The position numbers and the translations under genes were made by a program. 64,000 nucleotides of DNA from Tillus elongatus (lineage: Eukaryota; Arthropoda; Insecta; Coleoptera; Cleridae): contig OZ023268.1 of the NCBI GenBank assembly GCA_964006375.1, positions 84,951,835-85,015,834 of the forward strand, written 5' to 3'. The notes beneath the pieces are model-generated. The model was not told the DNA's origin. It made no database searches and worked only from the letters and a program-made list of their open reading frames with translations. This document shows positions 1,082 through 62,980 of the stretch, piece after piece; within the stretch, counting starts at the first letter, position 1, and the number at the start of each line of letters is the position of its first letter.

Positions 1082-1581
1082 GACTTAGACTACTACAGGG
1101 AACAACATCGTGCCGCCATGAATCAGCTAGAAGTTTCCTCTCAAGATTCAGCTTCGTTAAGAACCAAATATGCTGAGCTTTTGGCAGAGAAGCAATGTCT
1201 GGAGAGCGAAAATCAGCGGCTACGCCAAGAGCTGAACAATGGTCCTGGTAATGCAGATAAGCTATTCCTGTCCCATTCCCAGGCACTCAGTAAGCTGGAG
1301 TTGGCACAGGATGAGAACAGCCGTCTGTTGAAGCAATGTGATCTAATGAACCAGGAAAGACAGGGCTTGCAGCGTCAAGTGGCTGACCTAAAAAACCAGG
1401 TGGTTAAATTATATAAAGACTACACTAAATATAGGGAGGCGCATCAGAAGTTACAGCAGCAGTATGATGATACTGAGAAGCAGCTGCTAGCTGTCAGGAT
1501 CAAAGCTAACAAAGACTTGAAGAGGCTTACTGATGAGAGAAACGCTACTATGAATGAGTATACACTTGTTATGAGTGAAAG
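1082..1581 (+). CDS. dlg5: DLG5 exon (coiled coil), first in window
   Basis: This exon follows an acceptor ending cctattctag and stops before the donor gtaggt at 1582. The frame is open from the first base (DLDYYREQHRAAMNQLE), so it is an internal exon and the ATG at 1118 is not the start. It encodes about 166 residues of heptad-rich coiled coil, dense in Leu, Glu, Gln and Lys, matching the DLG5 region after the N-terminal CARD-like segment. The exon ends with two bases of an Arg codon, completed by the first base of the next exon across a 74-bp intron. DLG5 is a membrane-associated guanylate-kinase scaffold that in known systems acts at cell junctions and in polarity and Hippo signalling. 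The coiled coil mediates association in the family. Upstream exons lie outside the window. Confidence 0.9.
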
Positions 1582-1655
1582 GTAGGTAACACTGTCTTAT
1601 CCTTTTCCTCTTTGCCAAACATGGTAGAAACATAATTATATTTTTGTCATTTCAG

Positions 1656-4430
1656 GGATACTGTCCACAAAGAAATGGAAAAACTAAGTGATGATTTGGC
1701 TCAGGCTTTAAAGAAAAGTAAGATGCTAGATACAGACAATAAGGAACTTTTACAGGAAAAGCAGGCTTTAAACTACCAGATGGAATCACTGAGGAGAGAG
1801 ATAGCCAGTGCTCTTCATGAACGTGACAAATCTGTAAAGGAATGCAATGACTTGAGAGAAAGAGTTGGAGATTTCGGCTCAAAGTCTAAGGAAGATAACA
1901 GAGGTTCCCAGGGTAGTAGACTGACAGATAGCTACCTCTCTGGAGAGAATGTCACTAGAAAAGATCTACTAATGCTGCGACATGATTCAAGGTCGATGAA
2001 CCAGAGACAGAGGCCTGACAACCTTGATCAGGCCAACCAAGAGCTTGAGTCATTGCGCAAGAGCTTGGATAAGGTTCAGAGTGAGCTTAATGAAGCTATT
2101 AAGGAGGCTGAAGTGAGCAAGGGAAGAAGAGACTGGGCATTCTCAGAGAGAGACAAGATTGTGTTGGAACGAGAGAGTATTCGTACTTTGTGTGATAATA
2201 TGAGAAAAGAACGAGATAGAGCAGTTTCAGAACTGGCAGAATCTTTAAGAGAATCTGATGCAGTAAAGAAACAACGTAATGAACTTCTGAAGGAAGTAAA
2301 AATGCTGAAGGAACTCTTGGAAGAACAACAGGAGGTTCAGCAGCACGCTGACACTGAATTGCTAGATGTAGACCTGACCGGGGCGGCTGGAAGTGACTTG
2401 GGGTTGTCGCTTGTTGGAGGTAGAGATGACCCAATCCGTCCAGGTGACACCACTGTTTATGTAGCTTCAGTGGCAAAGGGTTCTATTGCAGATGGTAAAC
2501 TTCGTCCTGATGACTGTATTTCTAGAGTTAATGATGTGGACTGTGCCGCTGTATCTAGGCGCATGGTGTTGGAGGCGATACGCTCCAGCCTGCCGCAGGC
2601 CAGAGTTGTAGTGAGGCGCAGAAGGAACGCTCCTGTTCGATGGATACACACCGCTCGTTTGGTACCTGGATGTCATGGCATCACTCTCAGAGCAGGCGTG
2701 TACATAGCCCGTATCAGTGATGGATCGTTAGCAGCCAGAGACCGCTCGCTAGCTGTTGGTGACAGGGTACTCAGGATAAATGACACTTCACTGGAAGAGA
2801 TTACTGACCTTGGCCCTGCTGTAGAAGCGCTTAATGACGATACCGCAGATGTTTTAACCATAACTACCCTAAAAATGGGGCCTCCTGACACTCCCAATGT
2901 GTTTGTGCCTGTGAGGAAGCTTCGTAAAGAAAACCGTAGTTCACAAACTGAAGATCTTGATACCTACCATGACGGAAAGTTTAGTGGAAGTAGCGGTGCA
3001 TGGTTGAGAGACAAGCTTGATCTTATGCGTGGTAGGAGACATTCTAAAGAGAAGTATAGAACTAATTCTCCTAATCCAGAACAGGCAATTGCAGAATTAG
3101 ACCTGGTGTTGGATAGTTATCATGGAAACAGCAGCAGTAATAACACTGGCACAATAAAACGTTCCAAGCCTAAGCACAAGGAAGATAAGAATGGAGGGAC
3201 ATGGCCGAAAGCACGTGCTCATGCTGTGCTTACAGGAGGTGCGGGTCCAGCGGGCACGAACACAGGTACTACGGTTGTACGTCCCAAGCGAGAGAGAGCT
3301 CCGCTTAGTCTTTTGGTAGACACAAAAGACTGTTGCAATCGCAACTCTACTCCATTGCCTCTGATTATGTCACCATTATCTCCTTCTCCTAGGTACCCAG
3401 TATTTCGTAGTTTGGATGGTGGTAGTGTCAACTCAGCAGCTGTAGTGGGTGACTCACTGGAGAAACTGCGTGGTAATCATCCTCACCGACACAGTCACCA
3501 CCTAGACTTAAAAGAACCCCCAGGAGCTGCTTACTATAGGAAGATGTTCGGAGGTAAGACAACCACTGGAGATTGGGAATTGTGGAACCGCAGTCTGCAC
3601 CACCCTTTCCAGCCACACCCCCACCCACATCAGACACAGTCACCACCGCCTTTACCACCTTCTGCACATCATGCATCTTCCAGAGATAGCTTTAGTTTTG
3701 AACCCAGTGGTTGGCATACCCATAGCTCTTCTACAGATTGCGGCTCTTATCTGCGTTATCAGCAGCACCAGCCGAGAGGTGGAGGAGTGCCTCCACATCA
3801 GCACCAACATCATCATCATCTGGATTACATGGAAGGTGGCACTTTTCCCAGGAATCAGAGGTTCAGAGTACCCTCAAACCCCAGCGTGGTGAGCAGTAAG
3901 CTGTCCACAGGCAGTATAGAACGTGGTGTTTGTACTGGCGGAGGTGGTGGTTCGGAACGTGGTAGTCCTGCTCCTATTTTTCACGTGGAAGTACTGAGTC
4001 AAGGTCCCTCAGAACTAAGACGTGTCCATATAGATAAGAGCAACGAACCTTTAGGCATACAGATCAACTGTCCTGAGAATGGTGGCATATTTGTAAGCAC
4101 AGTGAACGATGGTAGTCTGGCGAGCAGGGTAGGCCTTCAGATAGGTGATCAATTGCTTGAAGTGTGTGGTATTAACATGCGAAACGCTACGTATAACCTG
4201 GCGGCTAATGTGCTACGGCAGTGTGGTAACTCCATTACCATGTTGGTCCAGTACAGCCCAGATAAGTACAATGAGCTGAGAACCTCTTGTGACCCTTCCA
4301 GTGACGATGATGATGATCCTCCATCTACATCGGCGGCTTCTCCGCCGAGAGATGCTGATGATGCAACACCCTGTAACTCACCCAAACAGATTAGAAAGAT
4401 ACAGGGTTCCTGTTTACCACAGCTTACAAA
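1656..4430 (+). CDS. dlg5: DLG5 large exon: coiled coil, PDZ1, PDZ2, PDZ3
   Basis: A 2,775-bp exon bounded by the acceptor atttcag (1655) and the donor gtaagt (4431). Counting from 1657, residues 1-228 continue the coiled coil (SERDTVHKEMEKL is a DLG5 signature across the splice). PDZ1 is about residues 233-323 with carboxylate loop LGLSLVGG. PDZ2 follows at about 327-406 (HGITL, GDRVLRIND). A long low-complexity linker rich in Ser, Gly, Pro and His covers about 410-780, including His runs at 3610-3830. PDZ3 is about 785-868 (LGIQI, GDQLLEVCG). An acidic Asp tract follows. A linker between a PDZ pair and a second PDZ pair is the DLG5 layout. Translation past the donor would hit a stop, so splicing at 4430 is required. 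Confidence is high from domain order and reading-frame continuity. Confidence 0.95.
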
Positions 4431-4503
4431 GTAAGTGCTGCCTCATCCTATCCTATAAATTTATACAAAAAAGGTACATTAGGTATTTGTTGTCTAATTC
4501 TAG

Positions 4504-4769
4504 CGAAGAAGAGGCACCAAGATATTTGAACATGAAAACAATGAAAAGTTCAAATTTGGGCATATCATTAGTTGGAGGTAATGCAGCTGGTATCTTTATC
4601 CACTCTGTTCAGCCAGAATCACCAGCTTACCGTGCAGGTCTGCGTATTGGAGATCAGATATTGGAATATAATGGCAGTGATCTGAGACAAGCTACGGCTG
4701 AAGAGGCTGCCTATGAACTGGCTAAACCAGCAGATGAAGTCACAGTTCTTGCACAACAACGAATAGCAT
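4504..4769 (+). CDS. dlg5: DLG5 exon: PDZ4
   Basis: A 266-bp exon after a 73-bp intron (acceptor attctag at 4503, donor gtaagt at 4770). The split codon is aa plus c, giving Asn. It encodes one complete PDZ domain, with the carboxylate-binding loop LGISLVGG followed by GIFIHSVQPESPAYRAG and GDQILEYNG. This is the fourth and last PDZ of DLG5 and sits just before the SH3 exon, as in the family. The exon leaves one base (t) to begin the codon completed at 10058. The next intron is 5.3 kb and full of mobile elements. Confidence 0.92.
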
Positions 4770-4773
4770 GTAA

Positions 4774-4943
4774 GTATATCTTGTTCTTAATCTTCGTTAA
4801 TGACATTAAAAGTATCAACCCTTTAGAAACAACTAATTACCTTTTATGTACAAGGTGGTCTAAAAGTAATGGTGCACAGAGCAGCAGTAGATTCTTCAAA
4901 ATATTACAATATATCCAAACTTACCTTAATTCAAAAGATAAAA
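4774..4943 (+). other. dlg5 intron start, no feature
   Basis: The frame stays open past the donor to 4972. That text has no domain similarity and runs into LINE debris, so it is treated as intron. Confidence 0.4.
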
Positions 4944-5200
4944 TTAAAAGTGATACAGGGTCTTTAAAGTGAGAAATTGATTATTTTTAAAAGTCTTTGA
5001 GGTATTGGTTCCTGATTCTTGTGACAGTAGTAGTTGTGTAACCTCATGTTTTCTGCAGTGAATCCTCGTTATATCTGTGAATTTCTGTCGAACAGCTTCC
5101 CATCTCTTGCATTTGTATAGCGTGTGTTTCACGTCATCTCTCTATTCACAGTAGCTGCAGTGTTCTGTTTGGTCCTTGCCTTGAAAGTGCTTAAGATGCT
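4944..5200 (-). pseudogene. LINE ORF2 C-terminal CCHC fragment
   Basis: On the - strand the text reads CSYC, an in-frame stop, then HTLYKC, that is CX2C...HX4C, followed by RWEAVRQKFTDI. This is the zinc-knuckle-like end of ORF2 in RNase H-bearing LINEs of the I/LOA group (compare AQHIILCECKA in the element at 16660-18860). There are at least one stop and no neighbouring RT on this strand, so it is a short relic. Confidence 0.5.
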
Positions 5201-5259: not shown

Positions 5260-6057
5260 TGCTGAGGAAGTAGATGAAATCACAGCTAAAATGCCGAAAT
5301 ATTGTTTACCATACCGCTTAGACCCTCTAACACACATAGTCAATTGTTCTTTGGGGAGTGGGGTGTTTCCTCTGCTTTGCTATAATCACACCTATTCCTA
5401 AATCAAACCAAAGACCAATTAGCATTCTATGTTGCCCTTCTAAAATATTTAAAAAAGTAGTGTATGTCCAGCTAAATGAACACCTAGAATACAATGAGAT
5501 TTTAACTAAATTTTAGTCAGGTTTTAGGAAAGGCTACATTTTCCACTCAGCTTTGTGCAAAATCACAAATGATGCCCCTGCTTTTGATAATGGGAAGATA
5601 CACAGGAGGTTTTCATTGATATGACTAGAGCTTTTGATTCCATTAATACTGAATTCCTGTTAGCAAAAATCATATAGTGTCAATGGTATTGAGCTAGACT
5701 GGTTTTGCGGCTATCTTGTGCACAGATGGCAGGCTGTTGTGTTTAGTACTGAAGGTTATCAGATGTCTACTTTTCCAGAGAGCACTCCGGGCGTTCCTTA
5801 GGGATACATTTCAGGACCCGTTCTTTTTTCACTCTATATATCGGATCTATCTAATATCATTGAATTTTTCAACTTGCACATCTAGTTGGCGACTTACAAA
5901 TGTATTTTTCCTTTAATGAATTAAACTCTATGTATGCGATGTAGCTTCTCAACCTTAATCTTCAAAAAATATCTAAATATGCAGCTGAAAACTGTCTAGA
6001 AGTTAATCCTGGAAAGCACAAGCCATACTGTTCAGCAGAAATAAGGTCGTTGGAGAA
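5260..6057 (+). pseudogene. CR1-like reverse transcriptase, 5' part
   Basis: Broken + strand coding for the RT domain of a CR1/jockey-type LINE. In order, with frame changes and stops, it reads ITPIPKSNQRPISIL (fingers), SGFRKG, MTRAFDSIN (motif A region) and GVPQGYISGPVLFSLYISDL (motif B region), then LEVNPGKHK (thumb side). It stops being RT at 6057, where the hammerhead-bearing repeat begins. The thumb resumes in frame at 8668, after a repeated 9-mer gttggagaa. The two halves are therefore one LINE split by an insertion. It lies sense within the 5.3-kb dlg5 intron and is plainly non-functional. Confidence 0.75.
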
Positions 6058-6073
6058 GGCTAGATGCATTCTC

Positions 6074-6142
6074 ACCACAATTATAACCATAGACCGGTTT
6101 CACTCTAATTAGAGCTCGTCAGTACGGCATACCAATTGTAGC
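6074..6142 (-). ncRNA. Hammerhead-ribozyme-like motif, copy E
   Basis: On the - strand: GCTACAATTGG (stem I side), CTGACGAG core, CTCTAATTAGAG hairpin (stem II), TGAAAC core, CCGGTCTATGG (stem III), then TAATTGTGGT, which pairs with the first strand over about 10 bp. The CUGACGA and GAAA core boxes are intact. It is antisense to dlg5 transcription. Confidence 0.65.
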
Positions 6143-6404
6143 GAAAATACACCTATAAAGTAATACGGCTATGGTATCCATCCTTCCAACACTAAGTGAA
6201 TGGTAAGACATGAAGCAACGTGCCGCCACCTAGTTGCAGAACCAAGTAGTATGCTGTCATGCCAGCTCCAAATAACACAAAGTGTTAAAAAATAGAAACT
6301 GTATACAACTAACTAACAATTCAGTAAATTGTCAGCCCTGACCCCCTGACAGAGTATGCAAGGTTAGATGCATTCTCACCACAATTAGAACCGTAGACCG
6401 GTTT

Positions 6405-6917
6405 CATTTTTGAGGAATTCAGTCCTGTGTTGCGGGATATCTAGTAGAAACAGAATGTAACTCAGACCTTCAAACGACAAGTTCTTGCAGATACGGTGGT
6501 GAATTCAGGTTTACAACTTTGTATATGAAGCAACTCGTATGGAGAAATCTTTTCTGAGTCATAGTTAGCCACCCTGCAGTTTGTCGGTATGGTGTAACAT
6601 GATGATACCTCCAAAGTGTATATGCAAATCTCAGACAATTTAGCATTTTCCATATGAGGTACTTATTTTCTGTGAGATAGGGACCATAGACAATGTCCAT
6701 ATAATTGATATGATTCAAAACAAAGTGGTCAGTCAGCATCAACTTCAAATTAGTCAACTCTAAATTATGAAAGCTCTTTTAATTTGAGAAAGGCAGTTTT
6801 GCACATGTGGTTGACTTGCCAGTTGAAAGTGAATGCTTCGTCCGATTGTAAACCAAGGCTTTTGAGCTCTTTGCTTCACTGTATGGCTTGTCCATTTAGT
6901 CCAAGATCAAGTTCTCC
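6405..6917 (-). pseudogene. Inverted copy of the CR1-like LINE 3' end
   Basis: Near-identical reverse complement of 8670-9190, coding on the - strand for the thumb and C-terminal region (HINYMDIVYGPYLTENKY and TAGWLTMTQKRFLHTSCF). It includes the same join between repeat monomer and LINE (gttggagaacttgatc). The inversion therefore arose after the repeat had inserted. See the palindrome finding. Confidence 0.75.
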
Positions 6918-7127
6918 AACGACACCAAGTGAGTGGTGAGACACCAAGCAACGTGCCGCCACCTAGTTGCGGAATCAAGTAGCATGTTGTCACGTCAGCT
7001 CCAAATAACACAAAGTGTTAAAAAATAGAGACTGTATACAACTAACTGACAATTTAGTAAATTGTCAGCCCTGGCCCATTTCTACTCTTAAGATAGGGAC
7101 AAAGTATGCAAGGTTAGATGCATTCTC

Positions 7128-7196
7128 ACCACAATCAGAACCGCAGACCGGTTTCACTCTAATTAGAGCTCGTCAGTACGGTGTACCAATTGTAGC
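7128..7196 (-). ncRNA. Hammerhead-ribozyme-like motif, copy F
   Basis: Read on the - strand, it carries CTGACGAG, a 4-6 bp stem II closed by TAATTA, TGAAAC, stem III ACCG/CGGT, and outer stem I strands ACAATTGG and TGATTGTGG. The core boxes are intact. Confidence 0.65.
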
Positions 7197-7448
7197 GAAA
7201 ATACACCTGGAAAGTAATACGTAATATACCATATTAGGGTAGAAATCGGCCAGAGCTGACAATTTACTAAATTGTTAGTTGGTTGTATACAGTCTCTATT
7301 TTTTAACACTTTGTGTCATTTGGAGCTGTGGTGACAACATACTATTTGGTTCCGCAACTAGGTGGCAGCACGTTGCTTCGTGTCTTACCACTCACTTAGT
7401 GTTGGAAGGCTGGCTACCCTAGCCATATTACTTTATAGCTGTATTTCC

Positions 7449-7518
7449 GCTACAATTGGTATGCCGTACTGACGAGCTCTAATTAAAGCGAAACCGGTCT
7501 ACGGTTCTAATTGTGGTG
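7449..7518 (+). ncRNA. Hammerhead-ribozyme-like motif, copy A
   Basis: On the + strand: GCTACAATTGG, CTGACGA at 7469-7475, stem II GCTC/AAGC (one mismatch), GAAA at 7490-7493, stem III ACCG/CGGT, then TTC and TAATTGTGGT. It is the only + strand copy in this array with both CUGANGA and GAAA intact. It is sense to dlg5. Confidence 0.65.
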
Positions 7519-7762
7519 ATAATGCATCTAGCCTTACATACTTTGTCCCTATATTAGGGTAGAAATGGGCCAGGGCTGACAATTTACTAAATTGTTAGTT
7601 GGTTGTATACAGTCTCTATTCTTTAACACTTTGTGTTATTTGGAGCTGGCGTGACAACATACTACTTGGTTCTGCAACTAGGTGGTGGCACGTTACTTTG
7701 GGTCTTACCACTCACTTAGTGTTGGAAGGCTGACTACCGTATTACTTTATAAGCGTATTTTC

Positions 7763-7831
7763 GCTACAATTGGTATGCCGTACTGACGAGCTCTAATTAG
7801 AGCAAAACCGTTCTGCGGTTCTAATTGTGTT
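7763..7831 (+). ncRNA. Hammerhead-like motif, copy B (core mutated)
   Basis: CTGACGA at 7783-7789 and stem II GCTC/GAGC are intact. The GAAA box reads AAAA (the essential G is lost), so I expect it to be inactive. Confidence 0.55.
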
Positions 7832-8081
7832 GAGAATGCATCTAGACTTACATACTTTGTCCCTGTATTAGGATAGAAATGGGCCAGGGCTGATAATTTA
7901 CTAAATTGTTAGTTGGTTGTATACAGTCTCTATTTTTTAACACTTTGTGTTATTTGGAGCTGGCATGACAACATACTACTTGGTTCCGCAACTAGATGGC
8001 GGTACGTTACTTTGGGTCTTACACTCACTTAGTGTTGGAAGGCTGACTACCATAGCCATATTACTTTATAAGCGTATTTTC

Positions 8082-8150
8082 GCTACAATTGGTATGCCAT
8101 ACTGGCGAGCTCTAATTAGAGCAAAACCGTTCTACGGTTCTAATTGTGGT
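8082..8150 (+). ncRNA. Hammerhead-like motif, copy C (core mutated)
   Basis: Same layout, but the first box reads CTGGCGA and the second AAAA. Two core positions differ from the ribozyme consensus. Confidence 0.5.
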
Positions 8151-8399
8151 GAGAATGCATCTAGCCTTACATACTTTGTCCCTGTATTAGGATAGAAATG
8201 GGCCAGGGCTGACAATTTACTAAATTGTTAGTTAGTTGTATACAGTCTCTATTTTTGAACACTGTGTTATTTGGAACTGGCGTAACAACATTCTACTTGG
8301 TTCCGCAACTAGGTGGCGGCACGTTGCTTCGTGTCTTACCACTTACTTAGTGTTGGAAGGCTTGCTAGCATAGCCGTATTACTTTATAAGTGTATTTTA

Positions 8400-8468
8400 G
8401 CTACAATTGGTATGCCGTACTGACGAGCTCTAATTAGAGCAAAACCGGTCTACAATTCTAATTGTGGT
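8400..8468 (+). ncRNA. Hammerhead-like motif, copy D (core mutated)
   Basis: CTGACGA is intact. GAAA reads AAAA, and the stem III 3' strand is changed (ACAATTC instead of ACGGTTC). Confidence 0.5.
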
Positions 8469-8667
8469 GAGAATGCATCTAGCCCTACATACTTTACCAT
8501 ATTAGGGTAGAAATGGGCCAGGGCTGACAATTTACTAAATTGTTAGTTGGTTGTATACAGTCTATATTTTTTAACACTGTTTTTGGGAGCTGTCGTGGCA
8601 ACATACTACTTGGTTCCGCAACTAGGTGGCGGCACGTTGCTTCGTGTCTTACTACTCACTTAATGTT

Positions 8668-9205
8668 GTTGGAGAACTTGATCTTGGACTAAATGGACAA
8701 GCCATACAGTGAAGCAAAGAGCTCAAAAGCCTTGGTTTACAATCGGACGAAGCATTCAGTTTCAACTGTCAAATCAACCACATGTGCAAAACTGCCTTTC
8801 TCAAATTAAAAGAGCTTTCATAATTTAGAGTTGACTAATTTGAAGTTGATGCTGACTGACCACTTTGTTTTGAATCATATCAATTATATGGACATTGTCT
8901 ATGGTCCCTATCTCACAGAAAATAAGTACCCCATATGGAAAATGCTAAATTGTCTTAGATTTGCATATACACTTTGGAGGTATCATCATGTTACACCATA
9001 CCGACAAACTGCAGGGTGGCTAACTATGACTCAGAAAAGATTTCTCCATACGAGTTGCTTCATATACAAAGTTGTAAACCTGAACTCACCACCGTATCTG
9101 CAAGAACTTGTCGTTTGAAGGTCTGAGTTACATTCTGTTTCTACTAGAAGTTGCTCTTTACTTCATATCCCGCAACACAGGACCGAATTCTTCAAAAACT
9201 CTTGC
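8668..9205 (+). pseudogene. CR1-like reverse transcriptase, 3' part
   Basis: This is the continuation of the LINE split at 6057. The thumb begins ELDLGLNGQAI and is followed by an open 95-codon stretch at 8831-9118, which includes NHINYMDIVYGPYLTENKY and RQTAGWLTMTQKRFLHTSCF. That is the conserved C-terminal domain following RT in CR1/jockey-type ORF2. A few stops and frame changes are present. The LINE text ends near 9205, ten bases before a SINE with its own target duplication. It is not functional. Confidence 0.75.
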
Positions 9206-9225
9206 CTAACAAGCTGTTTATATTT

Positions 9226-9589
9226 GTGTGTGTGTGTGTGTGTTTTTTATTTCTTTAACGTCAGCCTATTTCCGCGACTATGGCCAATCACCGACGCCAG
9301 GGAGCAGTTTCACCCCACTATCCTGGAAATGTTGTTGAAACCCCGTCTTTCTGTATGGAGGGTAGGGATCTTTAACGTGCCCAACATCGCATGGACACGG
9401 GACCGACGGCTTTACGCCCCCTCTGAAGGGCGGAACATGCAGACATTCAACTTGCTCAAATACAATGCCACAACCTCGGATGTTAATTGTACAGTATGTA
9501 CTGAAAAAGTGAAAGGAGTACCGTGGGATAGAACCCAGTACCCTTCAGTTCAGAGGCACACATTCTCACTATTGAACCACCAAGGCTCT
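9226..9589 (-). mobile_element. tRNA-derived SINE, full-length
   Basis: On the - strand the element starts at about 9589 with a tRNA-like head: box A-like TGGTTCAATAGTGAG and box B-like GGGTTCTATCCC about 40 bp later. It continues with an unrelated body (for example TAAAGCCGTCGGTCCCGTGT) and ends in AAAAAACACACAC at 9226-9245. An 11-bp direct repeat, tgtttatattt, lies on both sides (9215-9225 and 9590-9600), the mark of LINE-assisted insertion. Two 5'-truncated relatives lie at 19047-19316 and 22557-22853. Confidence 0.8.
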
Positions 9590-29020: not shown

Positions 29021-30710
29021 CATAGATTTTACTTACCATTCAGTTTATGTGACATGACATTAAACACTAAACAAGAGTATAACTATGTTTATTAGCCACT
29101 ATACAGATTTTGCTTATCATTCAGTTTATGTGACATGGCATTAAACACTAAACCGGAGTATAACTATGTTTATTACCCACTATATAGATTTTACTTATCA
29201 TTCAGTTTATGTGACATGGCATTAAACACTAAACAAAAGTATAACTATGTTTATTAGCCACTATACAGATTTTGCTTATCATTTAGTTTATGTGACATGG
29301 CATTAAACACTAAACAAAAGTATAACTATGTTTATTAGCCACTATACAGATTTTACTTATCATTCAGTTTATGTGACATGGCATTAAACACTAAACAAAA
29401 GTATAACTATGTTTATTAGCCACTATACAGATTTTACTTATCATTCAGTTTATGTGACATGGCATTAAACACTAAACCGGAGTATAACTATGTTTATTAC
29501 CCACTATATAGATTTTACTTATCATTCAGTTTATGTGACATGGCATTAAACACTAAACAAAAGTATAACTATGTTTTTAGCCACTATACATATTTTGCTT
29601 ATCATTCAGTTTATGTGACATGGCATTAAACACTAAACCGGAGTATAACTATGTTTATTACCCACTATATAGATTTTACTTATCATTCAGTTTATGTGGC
29701 ATGGCATTAAACACTAAACCGGAGTATAACTATGTTTATTACCCACTATACAGATTTTACTTATCATTCAGTTTATGTGACATAGAATTAACCAGTACCC
29801 GGAGTATAACTATGTTTATTACCCACTATATAGATTTTACTTATGATTTAGTTTGTGTTGCATGGCATTAAATACTAAACCAGAGTATAACTATGTTTAT
29901 TACCCACTATACAGATTTTACTTATCATTCAGTTTATGTGACATGGCATTAAACACTAAACAAAAGTATAACTATGTTTATTAGCCACTATACAGATTTT
30001 GCTTATCATTCAGTTTATGTGACATGGCATTAACCAGTACCCGGAGTATAACTATGTTTATTACCCACTATATAGATTTTACTTATGATTCAGTTTATGT
30101 GGCATGGCATTAAACACTAAACCAGAGTATAACTATGTTTATTAACCACTATACATATTTTACTTATCATTCAGTTTATGTGGCATGGCATTAAACACTA
30201 AACTGGAGTATAACTATGTTTATTACCCACTATACAGATTTTACTTATCATTCAGTTTATGTGACATAGAATTAACCAGAACCTGGAGTATAACTATGTT
30301 TATTACCCTCTATATAGATTTTACTTATCATTCAGTTTGTGTGGCATGGCATTAAACACAAAACCGGAGTATAACTATGTTTATTACCCACTATACAGAT
30401 TTTACTTATCATTCAGTTTGTGTGGCATGGCATTAAACACTAAACCGGAGTATAACTATGTTTATTACCCACTATACAGATTTTACTTATCATTCAGTTT
30501 ATGTGACAGAATTCACCAGAACCTGGAGTATAACTATGTTTATTACCCTCTATATAGATTTTACTTATCATTCAGTTTGTGTGGCGTGGCATTAAACACT
30601 AAACCGGAGTATAACTATGTTTATTACCCACTAAACCGGAGTATAACTATGTTTATTATCCACTATACAGATTTTACTCCTATAACTATATTTATTACCC
30701 ACTATACGAC
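29021..30710 (+). repeat. 81-bp satellite array, about 21 copies
   Basis: Head-to-tail repeats with period 81 bp (gatttt landmarks at 29106, 29187 and 29268). The unit contains cattcagtttatgtgacatg and agtataactatgtttatta. Later units are more variable, and one partial unit is inserted near 30630. Because 81 is 27 codons, the frame stays open for up to 140 codons, giving a repetitive Tyr-rich peptide. I treat this as satellite, not protein. Confidence 0.9.
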
Positions 30711-54048: not shown

Positions 54049-55460
54049 CCAGCCATAGATTTACACGTAGAGTCAGCAGAAACGGGATGGATCGTCGCGA
54101 TCACAATATCAGTGAAGCGGATTCAACGTAGTAAATTTATGGCTAGCCATAGATGCCAGCCATGGCTACTGCACCTTACCGAAGAAAAAGGAATTTCTCT
54201 TAAGTGTTTTGCAATCACATAATAACACTAAACCAATTGTTTATTATTAACATAGTCACAGAGGAAAACTAAATTTAAAAGAAAAAAAAACATAAGAAGA
54301 TTGGGATAGCAATTAAGACGTTTCCGAAATATGAACTATTTTACATATTTGCAATAGATGTGCCAAAATCATAAAAACAAAAAATGATTACCAAGGCCCT
54401 AGTGTATGATAAGATACACAAATTATTTTTTGTCACCCTTTGCAAAAGTGAGAAAAACGCATATGAAGATCGGGATAGCAAATAAGACGTTTCCGAAATA
54501 TGAATTATTTTTTGATATTTTTAGTAGATGTGCAAAAATCGTAAAAACAAAAAATTATTACCAAGGCCCTAGTGTATAATAAGATATAAAAATTATTTTT
54601 TGTCACCCTTTGCAAAAGTGAAAAAAATGCCTATGAAAATCGGGATAGCAATTAAGAAGTTTCCGAAATATGAATTATTTTTTGAATTTTGCTGTAGATG
54701 TGCCAAAATTATAAAAACAAAAAAATGATTACTAAGGCCCTAGTGTATAATAAGATATGCAAATTATCTTTTGTCACCCTTTGCAAAAGTGATAAAAATG
54801 CATATGAAAATCGGGATAGCAATTAAGACGTTTCCGAAATATGAATTATTTTTTGATATTTGCAGTAGATGTGCCAAAATCGTAAAAACAAAAAATGATC
54901 ACCAAGGCCCTAGTGTATAATAAGATATGTAAATTATCTTTTGTCACCTTTTGCAAAAGTGAGAAAAATGCATATGAAGATCGGGATAGCAATTAAGAAG
55001 TTTCCGAAATATGAATTATTTTTTTGATATTTGCTGTAGATGTGCCAAAATCATAAAAACAAAACATGATTAACAAGGCCCTAGTGTATAATAAAATATG
55101 CAAATTATCTTTTGTCACCCTTTTCAAAAGTGAGAAAAATGCATAAGAAAATTGGGATAGCAATTAAGAAATTTCCGAAATATTAGTTATGTTTTGATAT
55201 TTACAGTAGATGTGCCAAAATCATAAAAACAAAAAACGATTACCAAGGCCTTAGTGTATAATAGGATATGTAAATTATCTTTTGTTACCTTTTGCAAAAG
55301 TGAGAAAAATGCATATGAAAATTGGGATAGCAATTAAGAAGTTTCCGAAATATGAATTATTTTTTGATATTTGCAGTAGATGTGCCAAAATCATAAAAAC
55401 AAAAAATTATTACCAAGGCCCTAGTGTATAATGAGATATGTAAACTATCTTTTTTCATTG

Positions 55461-56833: not shown

Positions 56834-58639
56834 GATGTTATCGTTAGGTTTTTAAAAAGATGTGTTGTGGTGATTTGGGTTTCTCCAAGTGTACTTATGT
56901 GTGCTCATCACAGGTTTCAGTCCACATCTAGAAGTCTTAATAAATCGGTAGGTCCATTTCGTGGAAAAAATTCAGTGTTTTACCATTAGAGCAGTCTACC
57001 GAACAATGCAATAAAATCTAGCATTTTAATAGAAAAAAAAATGCAAATTAAGAGTATTAATATTTATATTACTGCGTTTTTATACACTACAATTATTTAT
57101 CACTAATCTCCATTTTCAAAGCGGTCAGTAGCGGACTTAAAGTAATTAAGAAAAAAAATAATTCATATTTCGGAAACTTCTTAGTTGCTATCCCGATCTT
57201 CATATGCATTTTTCTAACTTTTGCAAAAGGTGACAAAAGATAATTTACATATCCTATTATACACTAGGGCCTTGGTAATCATTTTTTGTTTTTATGATTT
57301 TGGTACATCTACTGCAAATATCAAAAAATAGTTCATATTTCGGAAACGTCTTAATTGCTATCCCGATATTCATATGCATTTTTCTTACTTTTGAAAAGGG
57401 GTACATAAACGATAATTTGCGTATCTTATTATAAACTAGGGCCTTGGTAATCATTTTTTGTTTTTATGATTTTGGCGCATCTACTGCAAATATCAAAAAA
57501 TAATTCATATTTCGGAAACTTCTTAATTGCTATCCCGATCTTCATATGCATTTTTCTCACTTTTGAAAAGGGTGACAAAAGATAATTTGCATATCTTATT
57601 ATACACTGGTGCCTTGGTAATCATTTTTTGTTTTTATGATTTTCGCACATCCACTGCAAATATTAAAAAAATTATTCATATTTCGGAAACTTTTTAATTG
57701 CTATCCCGATCTTCATATGCATTTTTCTCACTTTTTCAAAACGCGACAAAATATAATTTACATATCCTATTATACACTAGGGCCTTGGTAATCATTTTTT
57801 GTTTTTATGATTTTGGCACATCTACTGCAAATATCAAAAAATAATTCATATTTCGGAAACGTCTTAATTGCTATCCCGATTTTCATTGGCATTTTTCTCA
57901 CTTTTGAAAAGGGTGACAAAAGATAATTTGCATATCTTATTATACACTGGAGTCTTGGTAATCATTTTTTGTTTTTATGATTTTGGCACATCTGCTGCAA
58001 ATATCAAAAAATAATTTATATTTCGGAAACTTCTCAATTGCTATCCCGATCTTCATATGCACTTTTCTCACTTTTGAAAAGGGTGACAAAAGATAATTTG
58101 CATATCTTATTATACATTGGAGCCTTGGTAATGATTTTTTGTTTTTATGATTTTGGCACATTTGCCGCAAATATCAAAAAATAATTCATATTTCGGAAAC
58201 TTCTCAATTGCTATCCCGATCTTCATATGCATTTTTCTCACTTTTGTAAAAGGCGACAAAAGATAATTTACACATCCTATTATACACTAGGGCCTTGGTA
58301 ATCATGTTTTGTTTTTATTATTTTGGCACATCTACTGCAAATATCTAAAATAGTTCATATTTCGAAAACGTCTTAATTGCTGCCCCAATCTTCTTATGTG
58401 TTTTTATTTTAAATTTAGTTTTCCACTATGACTATGTTAATAATAAATAATTGGTTTAGTGTTATTATGTTATTGCAAAACACTTAAGACAAATTCCTTT
58501 TTCTTCGGTAAGGTGCAGTAGCTATGGCTGGCATCTATGGTTAGCCATAAATTTACTACGTTGAATCCGCTTCAGTGATATTGTGATCGCGACGATCCAT
58601 CCCGCTTTCTGCTGACCTTACGTTTAAATCTATGGCTGG

Positions 58640-61890: not shown

Positions 61891-62188
61891 TATTATCAAA
61901 TACTGAAATGACCGATATGATATCAGTTTATGCCCGCGCAGGGGCCAGAAGTTACGTAGATATGTATCCCAGTCGTAAACAGCCCAAGCGCAAGTTGTTT
62001 TCGAGTACGCTTATTAGATTAACGGAAGATGGAAGTTTTCGCCCAAACAGACATTATGCACCACGTGTGGTGCGAACTGTTCAGTAGGGGAAAGCGGTAT
62101 TAAAGATTATTCAAGATGACCCAACAACAAGCATTCTACCAAGGTTGGATTGAGTCAGGGTACTGTATTACTTTATAAGTGTGTACTC

Positions 62189-62257
62189 GCTGTAATTAAT
62201 ATACGGTACTGATGAGCTCTAATTAGAGCAAAACCGGTCTGCGGTTCTAATTATGGT
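62189..62257 (+). ncRNA. Hammerhead-like motif G (core mutated)
   Basis: CTGATGAG at 62209, stem II hairpin CTCTAATTAGAG, second box AAAAC instead of GAAAC, stem III ACCG/CGGT. Confidence 0.5.
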
Positions 62258-62494
62258 GAGAATACATCTAGCCTTACATACATTGTCCCTATATTAGGGA
62301 AGAAATGGGCGAGAGCTGACAACTTACAAAATTGTTAGTTGGTTGTGCACAGTCTCTATTTTATAACATTTTGTGTTATTTGGAGCTCTCGTCACAACAT
62401 ACTACCTGGTTCCGCACCGAGATGGTGACCCTGTCGTACATCTCACAATGTTCTAGGACGCTGGCTACCATAGCTATATTACTTTATGTGTGTG

Positions 62495-62562
62495 TTTGTA
62501 ATTAGTATACTGTACTCATGAGCTTTTATTAGAGCGAAACCGGTCTGCGGCTCTAATTATGG
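62495..62562 (+). ncRNA. Hammerhead-like motif H (core mutated)
   Basis: The first box is CTCATGAG (G to C), the second GAAAC intact, stem III CCGGTCTGCGG. Confidence 0.5.
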
Positions 62563-62980
62563 TGAGAATACATATAGCCTTTCAGGGTACTGTGTTTAAC
62601 ATTTTAAGGGAACAACAAGTATACCCATAACATTTTCTCCGGTCCAAAACATACTGCCAGGTGATCTTTTAGCAAGAACAAATTTTTGTGAATTCATCTT
62701 CAATAAAAATAAACATGATCCACTTTTGTAAGTAAAATTATATTCACTGGTGAGGCAACATTTACGAGAAGAGGTATTTTCAACTACAAAAGTTATCACA
62801 CATGGACTGAAGAAAGCCCAAAAGTATGAGAATGCGTCACTTTCAGCACAAATTTAAATTAAACGTTTGGTTTGGTATAGTTGAAGATAGCCTTGTAGAA
62901 CCATTTGAACTTCCAGCAACACTGAAAGGACAAGACTACTTAGATTTTCTCCAGTGTAATTTATTGGATGTGCTAGATGA

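Follow-up and report, generated by a model that had tools for sequence, protein, structure and literature searches.

A block of hammerhead-bearing repeats interrupts a decayed LINE in the 64-kb stretch of DNA analysed here (the window), which raises the question of whether the repeats are a mobile element in their own right, satellite DNA, pieces of another element or, in their arrangement, a product of assembly. The block (6058-8667) lies between two copies of gttggagaa, found where the initial annotation had placed them, and the pseudogene around it reads, from the joined flanks, as a non-LTR LINE (Table 1). The suggestion that excision restores one LINE frame held insofar as the sequence reads on across the junction, but stops and frameshifts mark this LINE as a pseudogene. 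Tandem monomers of ~315 bp, as first described, were recovered by TRF (7231-8668, period 314, 4.5 copies, 91% matches), though not as a plain tandem array: beside the tandem plus-strand part (7231-8667) there are minus-strand monomers (6058-6406 and 6923-7221), together with a stretch of the LINE's right flank copied in inverted orientation. A profile search of the window placed the family at two loci, which contain every one of the 11 strong matches (E 3e-16 or better); 12 of the 14 weaker matches (E 0.009 to 7.2) lie on the opposite strand within the same two loci, leaving just two matches (E 4.4 and 7.2) elsewhere in the window. Relative to the majority base, the monomers of locus 1 carry 36 G-to-A and 18 C-to-T changes, an excess that was set aside as evidence because the monomer copies share ancestry.

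Table 1. Features of the two retrozyme loci, in window coordinates
Feature	Position	Strand	Remarks
Locus 1, left target-site duplication	6049-6057	+	gttggagaa, in LINE; sequence reads on across joined flanks
Monomer m2	6058-6344	-	element end TAGCC adjoins left duplication
m2 hammerhead motif	6071-6142	-	core bases all kept; GUC site
Partial monomer m2b	6345-6406	-	broken off within hammerhead at TGAAACCGGTC
Inverted copy of LINE right flank (8668-9198)	6407-6922	-	98.4% identical outside 17-nt gap
Monomer m1	6923-7221	-	meets inverted LINE copy at the nucleotide also used at the 8668 junction
m1 hammerhead motif	7125-7196	-	core bases all kept; GUC site; best match to Rfam HH9 within locus 1
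Monomer p1	7231-7544	+	within the TRF array
p1 hammerhead motif	7449-7520	+	core bases all kept; GUC site; one stem II C-A mismatch
Monomer p2	7545-7858	+	hammerhead 7763-7834; core G after stem II (G12) changed to A
Monomer p3	7859-8177	+	hammerhead 8082-8153; two changed core bases
Monomer p4	8178-8498	+	hammerhead 8400-8471; G12 changed to A
Partial monomer p5	8499-8667	+	AATGTT end against right duplication
Locus 1, right target-site duplication	8668-8676	+	gttggagaa, exact repeat of left copy
LINE right flank	8668-9198	+	source of inverted copy 6407-6922
Locus 2, left target-site duplication	62155-62166	+	tcagggtactgt, 12 bp
Locus 2, diverged retrozyme	62167-62581	+	~1.4 monomers; TAGCCTT end
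Locus 2, first hammerhead	62189-62260	+	A at G12
Locus 2, second hammerhead	62495-62566	+	CUCAUGA
Locus 2, right target-site duplication	62582-62593	+	joined flanks give ...KVGLSQGTVFNILREQQ...

Of the type I hammerhead parts first described, CUGACGA, a GCUC/GAGC hairpin, GAAAC and outer strands able to pair were confirmed. In the register given by the Rfam alignment, stem I, which is in two parts separated by an internal loop, abuts the core, GUC stands at the cleavage site and helix III is reduced to a single A-U pair with a palindromic CCGG as its loop. The initial annotation had instead taken ACCG/CGGU as stem III with a GUU triplet, and had cautioned that an A before CUGA and a C past the cut were unpaired and that GUU, though allowed, is uncommon; both caveats vanish in the GUC register, where GCCGUA and UACGGU form a helix beside the core. 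Eight full-length motifs were compared, six from locus 1 and two from locus 2, a ninth that is cut short (6345-6406) being left out. Contrary to the first description, an intact hammerhead core is not found in every monomer: the core is complete in only three of the eight (m2, m1 and p1) and changed in five, and the GUC site is kept in six and lost in two. The present copies are decaying, and part of this decay is probably due to deamination of a CpG where stem II meets G12.

With the whole 64 kb searched, the Rfam model HH9 (RF02275 Hammerhead_HH9) matched at both loci (E 0.0074, 0.0084 and 0.035), and in local searches E reached 4.5e-4 and 1.2e-4; the best matches span the full model (positions 1-77 of 77), but none attained the gathering score (52 bits; best match 28.1 bits). 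These matches agree with HH9 in the core, in stem II, in the site and in having an internal loop in stem I, but lack five of its helix III loop positions. A strict hammerhead scan, whose rules were set only after the motif had been seen, gave three matches in the window, all at locus 1, compared to two in 150 dinucleotide-shuffled windows; the three count as one event because they are copies of one another, at a background of roughly 0.013 per window. Pairing in the chosen stems holds for 94.9% of 176 cells, compared to 30-46% for slid pairing. Covariation among the eight copies did not exceed that of shuffled controls, of which 206 of 500 attained the score, and a two-sided change at one pair was equalled by 315 of 500. 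In the three core-complete copies, the catalytic single-motif fold (-10.4 to -6.8 kcal/mol) lies well above the minimum (-25.6 to -22.6 kcal/mol), and the hammerhead dimer fold is likewise not the cofold minimum.

The same comparisons bear on the ACCG/CGGU pairing with a GUU site and the distal strands as stem I, which pairs in 96.1% of 152 cells, slightly above the GUC register, has a covariation score or percentage paired that 40-45 of 500 shuffles reached, and has, in every one of the eight copies, a computed folding energy below that of the single hammerhead. As the ribozyme register it is nonetheless barely credible: ten unpaired bases would separate the outer stem from CUGA, and the Rfam alignment, which puts GUC at the site, prefers the other register. 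It was rejected as the ribozyme, and the pairing may represent a competing inactive fold.

The second locus is independent of the arrangement at the first. Exact target duplications occur at both (9 bp at locus 1, 12 bp at locus 2), and in both cases the host sequence reads on once the flanks are joined; at locus 2 that sequence (KVGLSQGTVFNILREQQ across the joined flanks) reads as a transposase pseudogene. An element end, TAGCC(TT), is common to the two loci, 34 and 36 nt downstream of the cleavage site, with the TT that follows TAGCC in m2 ambiguous between element and target. Hammerhead tandem arrays in newt and cave cricket were first described as satellites, and core changes in five of the eight motifs would suit satellite DNA with a decayed or vestigial hammerhead, spread through DNA-level exchange rather than retrotransposition. 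Such an origin is very unlikely here given two short arrays at unrelated sites, each set between exact target duplications in host sequence that reads on, with one end common to both.

The units themselves resemble a known class. The four measured are 306-319 nt long, inside the span of about 150-450 bp taken for such elements, with a GC content of 39.5-40.9%, below 50% in each case, and their circular folds are 66-69% paired (z -4.46, -3.01, -3.29 and -1.79), the fourth being only weakly better than shuffles. The longest stop-free run was 44 codons in a three-fold repeat of the one unit tested, and no LTR-internal region was seen in the arrays. Published accounts of metazoan non-LTR retrozymes give a unit length of ~170-400 nt, hammerheads of type I, a GC content below 50%, no LTR and large target-site duplications. 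The likeness to these elements (Cervera and de la Pena 2020, PMC7229834) extends to ~314-bp non-coding tandem units with a GC of ~40%, a type I hammerhead, target duplications >4 bp and a strongly paired circular fold; the inverted, mixed array within a LINE is unlike them. From its sequence, the ~314-bp element looks like a new family of known animal retrozymes. Together with the HH9 matches and the target duplications at two loci, the features that agree with these published traits make the earlier proposal of a mobile, non-coding, hammerhead-bearing retrozyme in a LINE well supported by sequence in its substance, though not in its register, triplet and simple layout. Scans for relatives by DNA pattern gave no matches in viral contigs (two scans) or in genome contigs (one scan of a prokaryote collection, which is a weak test).

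Penelope-like elements, whose pseudo-LTRs carry minimal hammerheads, offer another source for the repeats, and their type I hammerheads, like the motif described here, often have a weak or missing helix III and possibly cut as dimers. The published Penelope hammerheads are however minimal variants without helix III or loop contacts, whereas here stem I is extended, in two parts around an internal loop, and the best HH9 matches are full-length. Beside its repeats a Penelope-like element would be expected to have a reverse transcriptase frame with a GIY-YIG endonuclease; the units here are contiguous and the one tested has no long frame, a property that stray terminal repeats would share, and the pseudogene on either side looks like a non-LTR LINE. 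We regard a Penelope origin as highly improbable.

The inverted copy of the LINE flank invites a different doubt. Inverted copies joined via a repeat family are a common type of misassembly, and the arrangement at locus 1 could be such an artefact, in which case the retrozyme reading would stay intact. Between the LINE arms there are 8 mismatches in 514 bases (98.4% identity) plus a 17-nt gap, so that a single sequence merely placed twice by the assembler would not account for them, and locus 2 does not depend on the arrangement; an artefact is unlikely. The retrozyme parts adjoining the arms are less alike (87.4% identity, 37 mismatches in 293; Fisher p 1e-10), with the shift in identity at the junction. 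This ruled out an inversion by simple duplication of the array plus its right flank, and CpG decay alone was rejected as the cause of the difference, as only 3 of the 37 mismatches touch CpG.

The motif in its register, the monomers, the target duplications and the common end are features of the DNA. Very probably, they belong to a non-autonomous, non-coding, non-LTR metazoan retrozyme, whose RNA would cleave itself, circularise and enter the genome through target-primed reverse transcription. What is known of relatives suggests the steps from transcription and cleavage, with its dimer action, to circles and a mobilising enzyme. Tandem genomic monomers would be transcribed, and their type I hammerheads would release units of ~314 nt by cleavage after GUC. 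Cutting would probably occur as a dimer, the ACCGGU of one copy pairing with that of another, because helix III offers only the A-U pair and the palindromic CCGG. The cut units would be ligated into circles, and a non-LTR reverse transcriptase, from a LINE or a Penelope-like element, would insert concatemeric cDNA by target priming, leaving target duplications of 9-12 bp. More tentatively, and with the balance against it, the reverse transcriptase may enter the circular or multimeric RNA at a fixed UAGCC(UU), 34-36 nt past the cut rather than at it, and at locus 1 may have primed both target sides, in a twin-priming-like manner, from mixed RNA templates.

Axolotl retrozymes (HHR_Amex1 type) have the same one-base-pair helix III and palindromic tetraloop cap, with dimer action expected, in a unit of about 330 bp compared to ~314 bp here. 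According to one review, a stable helix III is open to the majority of type I motifs from invertebrates, though the same review also calls a weak helix III common in type I. The Dolichopoda pDo500 satellite (PMC2837043) is an insect hammerhead repeat for which a double-hammerhead form was also proposed, but its repeats are ~500 bp and, even when doubled, each stem III is formed by a single sequence. A dimer-type helix III beyond the amphibian retrozymes would widen the known range, provided that the host is an invertebrate. In the animal retrozyme literature, LINEs or Penelope-like elements are candidates for the inserting enzyme, and the repeats have no motif that points to either. The common element end, the inverted mixed array and the unusually legible insertion scars stand out at these loci: clean target duplications with a common end away from the cut would make the inserting enzyme testable in one genome, aided by monomers whose divergence exceeds that between the two copies of the host flank. 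If the fixed entry were true, the loci would hold a readable record of the insertion of a circle without a 3' end.

No Rfam family reached its gathering score anywhere in the window, but Hammerhead_HH9 (HH9, RF02275) matched at both retrozyme loci: locus 1, where the initial annotation had proposed hammerheads, and a diverged locus 2 that the annotation did not include. A permissive search of 5900–9300 returned 10 matches in total, with HH9 at six places, the best on 7124–7194(-) (27.9 bits, E = 4.5e-4) and 7451–7521(+) (26 bits, E = 1.8e-3) and the remaining four weaker (E = 0.06 to 3), and four matches to snoRNA families (E = 3.9 or worse). Searching 61900–62900 placed HH9 on 62191–62261 (28.1 bits, E = 1.2e-4) and 62497–62567 (17.5 bits, E = 0.3). 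Across the whole window (E up to 1), there were seven matches: three to HH9 (E = 0.0074, 0.0084, 0.035), all within the two retrozyme loci, and four to mir-297 (E = 0.024 to 1), which fall on AT repeats. A strict scan, with rules fixed after the motif had been seen (CUGANGA, stem II, GAAA, NUH, five stem I pairs, and a stem III closing pair plus one pair), gave three hits in the window, all at locus 1 and counted as one because they are related to each other, and two hits over 150 shuffled windows.

Within the window, BLAST and a profile search located the retrozyme family only at locus 1 and at 62160–62584 (locus 2). Two exact copies of gttggagaa (6049–6057 and 8668–8676) bracket the locus 1 block, 6058–8667, in which the monomer period is ~314 bp (TRF: 4.5 copies, 91% matches, 7231–8668) and monomers are 86.8–95.2% alike (pairs with ≥100 comparable columns).

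Layout of the retrozyme loci (window positions; m, minus-strand monomers; p, plus-strand monomers)
Feature	Position	Strand	Location
Monomer m2	6058–6344	-	locus 1
Partial monomer m2b	6345–6406	-	locus 1
Inverted copy of LINE right flank	6407–6922	-	locus 1
Monomer m1	6923–7221	-	locus 1
Nine unassigned bases between m1 and p1	after 7221, before 7231		locus 1
Monomers p1–p5	7231–8667	+	locus 1
Locus 2 including 12-bp target duplications	62155–62593		within putative transposase pseudogene

Four natural units, each delimited by two successive cleavage sites, span 306–319 nt, two of them ending in an altered UUC. Their circular folds pair 66–69% of bases (z = -4.46, -3.01, -3.29 and -1.79; 100 shuffles each), and in a triple repeat of the one unit examined the longest stop-free runs are 44 codons (plus strand) and 31 codons (minus strand). 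The window contains a PDZ protein, C2H2 zinc fingers and RT pseudogenes, a gene content that points to an animal host; long frames occupy 1118–4972, including one (1675–4434) with three PDZ stretches that, by reading, we take to be DLG5-like. Other tandem arrays include an 81-bp/242-bp array at 29024–30633 (short unit, ~20 copies) and two ~170-bp arrays (54281–55457 and 57153–58405) that look by eye like one satellite in opposite orientations, with units resembling reverse complements.

In the best hits, the HH9-aligned register reads GCCGUA-CUGACGA-GCUCU(AAUU)AGAGC-GAA-A(CCGG)U-C-UACGGU (bases of the commonest copy, stem II drawn one pair longer than the HH9 alignment). Stem I directly adjoins the core, helix III is a single A-U pair plus a palindromic CCGG, the pair adjacent to C3 is A-U in all eight copies, and the cleavage triplet is GUC in six of eight (UUC in p2 and p3). 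Past an internal loop, the distal strand CUACAAUU base-pairs with AAUUGUGG, and here a single pair has changed on both sides from one locus to the other (C-G to U-A). The initial annotation had instead taken an ACCG/CGGU hairpin as stem III, a register that the Rfam alignment does not pick and that leaves ten unpaired bases from the outer stem to CUGA. This earlier pairing may nonetheless be a competing fold, because its pairs are equally kept (96.1% of 152 cells vs 94.9% of 176 for the HH9 register), it fares slightly better against shuffles (40–45 of 500 doing as well on two measures vs 206–257 of 500), and its computed energy is below that of the single hammerhead in 8/8 copies. The HH9 register was preferred because of the Rfam alignment and known hammerhead anatomy, not because of pair, shuffle or energy counts. 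For the three core-complete copies, energies computed without tertiary contacts were -10.4 to -6.8 kcal/mol for single-hammerhead folds vs minima of -25.6 to -22.6, and -41.1 to -33.9 for homodimer hammerheads vs cofold minima of -63.2 to -55.4; such values are no proof of ribozyme activity.

Every core base is kept in three of eight motifs. G12, the core G after stem II, is A in four (among them p3, with a second core change), and in q2, a locus 2 motif, C replaces the G of CUGA. The stem II/G12 step in nine copies (CG, 2; CA, 4; TG, 3) is as expected if an ancestral CpG had decayed. Relative to the family majority, locus 1 monomers (6058–8667) carry 36 G-to-A vs 18 C-to-T changes in the element sense, uncorrected for ancestry.

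LINE sequence, here a pseudogene with stops and frameshifts, is continuous over the joined locus 1 flanks. At locus 2, joining the flanks gives KVGLSQGTVFNILREQQ, by reading a putative transposase pseudogene, and tcagggtactgt is repeated exactly at the edges (62155–62166 and 62582–62593); because further 10–12-nt direct repeats are present in the same kilobase, the weight of this repeat lies in its position at both element edges. The literature drawn on comprises PMC7229834, PMC7761336, PMC2837043, PMC6155905, PMC4918200 and PMC2837659. Where metazoan retrozymes have target duplications, these are longer than the 4-bp ones of plant retrozymes (PMC7229834), and those of Nematostella were 15 bp and LINE-like (PMC4918200). 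Both loci share an element end, TAGCC(TT), 34 and 36 nt 3' of the cleavage site; for these two loci, and assuming that ends fall anywhere on a 314-nt circle, the chance of ends within two bases is 1.6% (3.2% with either locus 1 end). The opposite ends are not alike.

With plus and minus monomers inside one target-duplication pair, locus 1 resembles the twin-priming products described for L1 (PMC2837659), but twin-priming does not account for the inverted LINE flank. Different templates may have been primed independently at one break, the arrangement may stem from later exchange with other arrays, or it may be a misassembly. The inverted LINE arms are 98.4% identical, but the adjoining retrozyme segments, fused to both arms at one shared nucleotide position, are only 87.4% identical (6407–7221 vs 8375–9198). 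Given this difference and the spread among monomers, the locus 1 monomers probably already differed before meeting the LINE, which argues against the copying of one circle.
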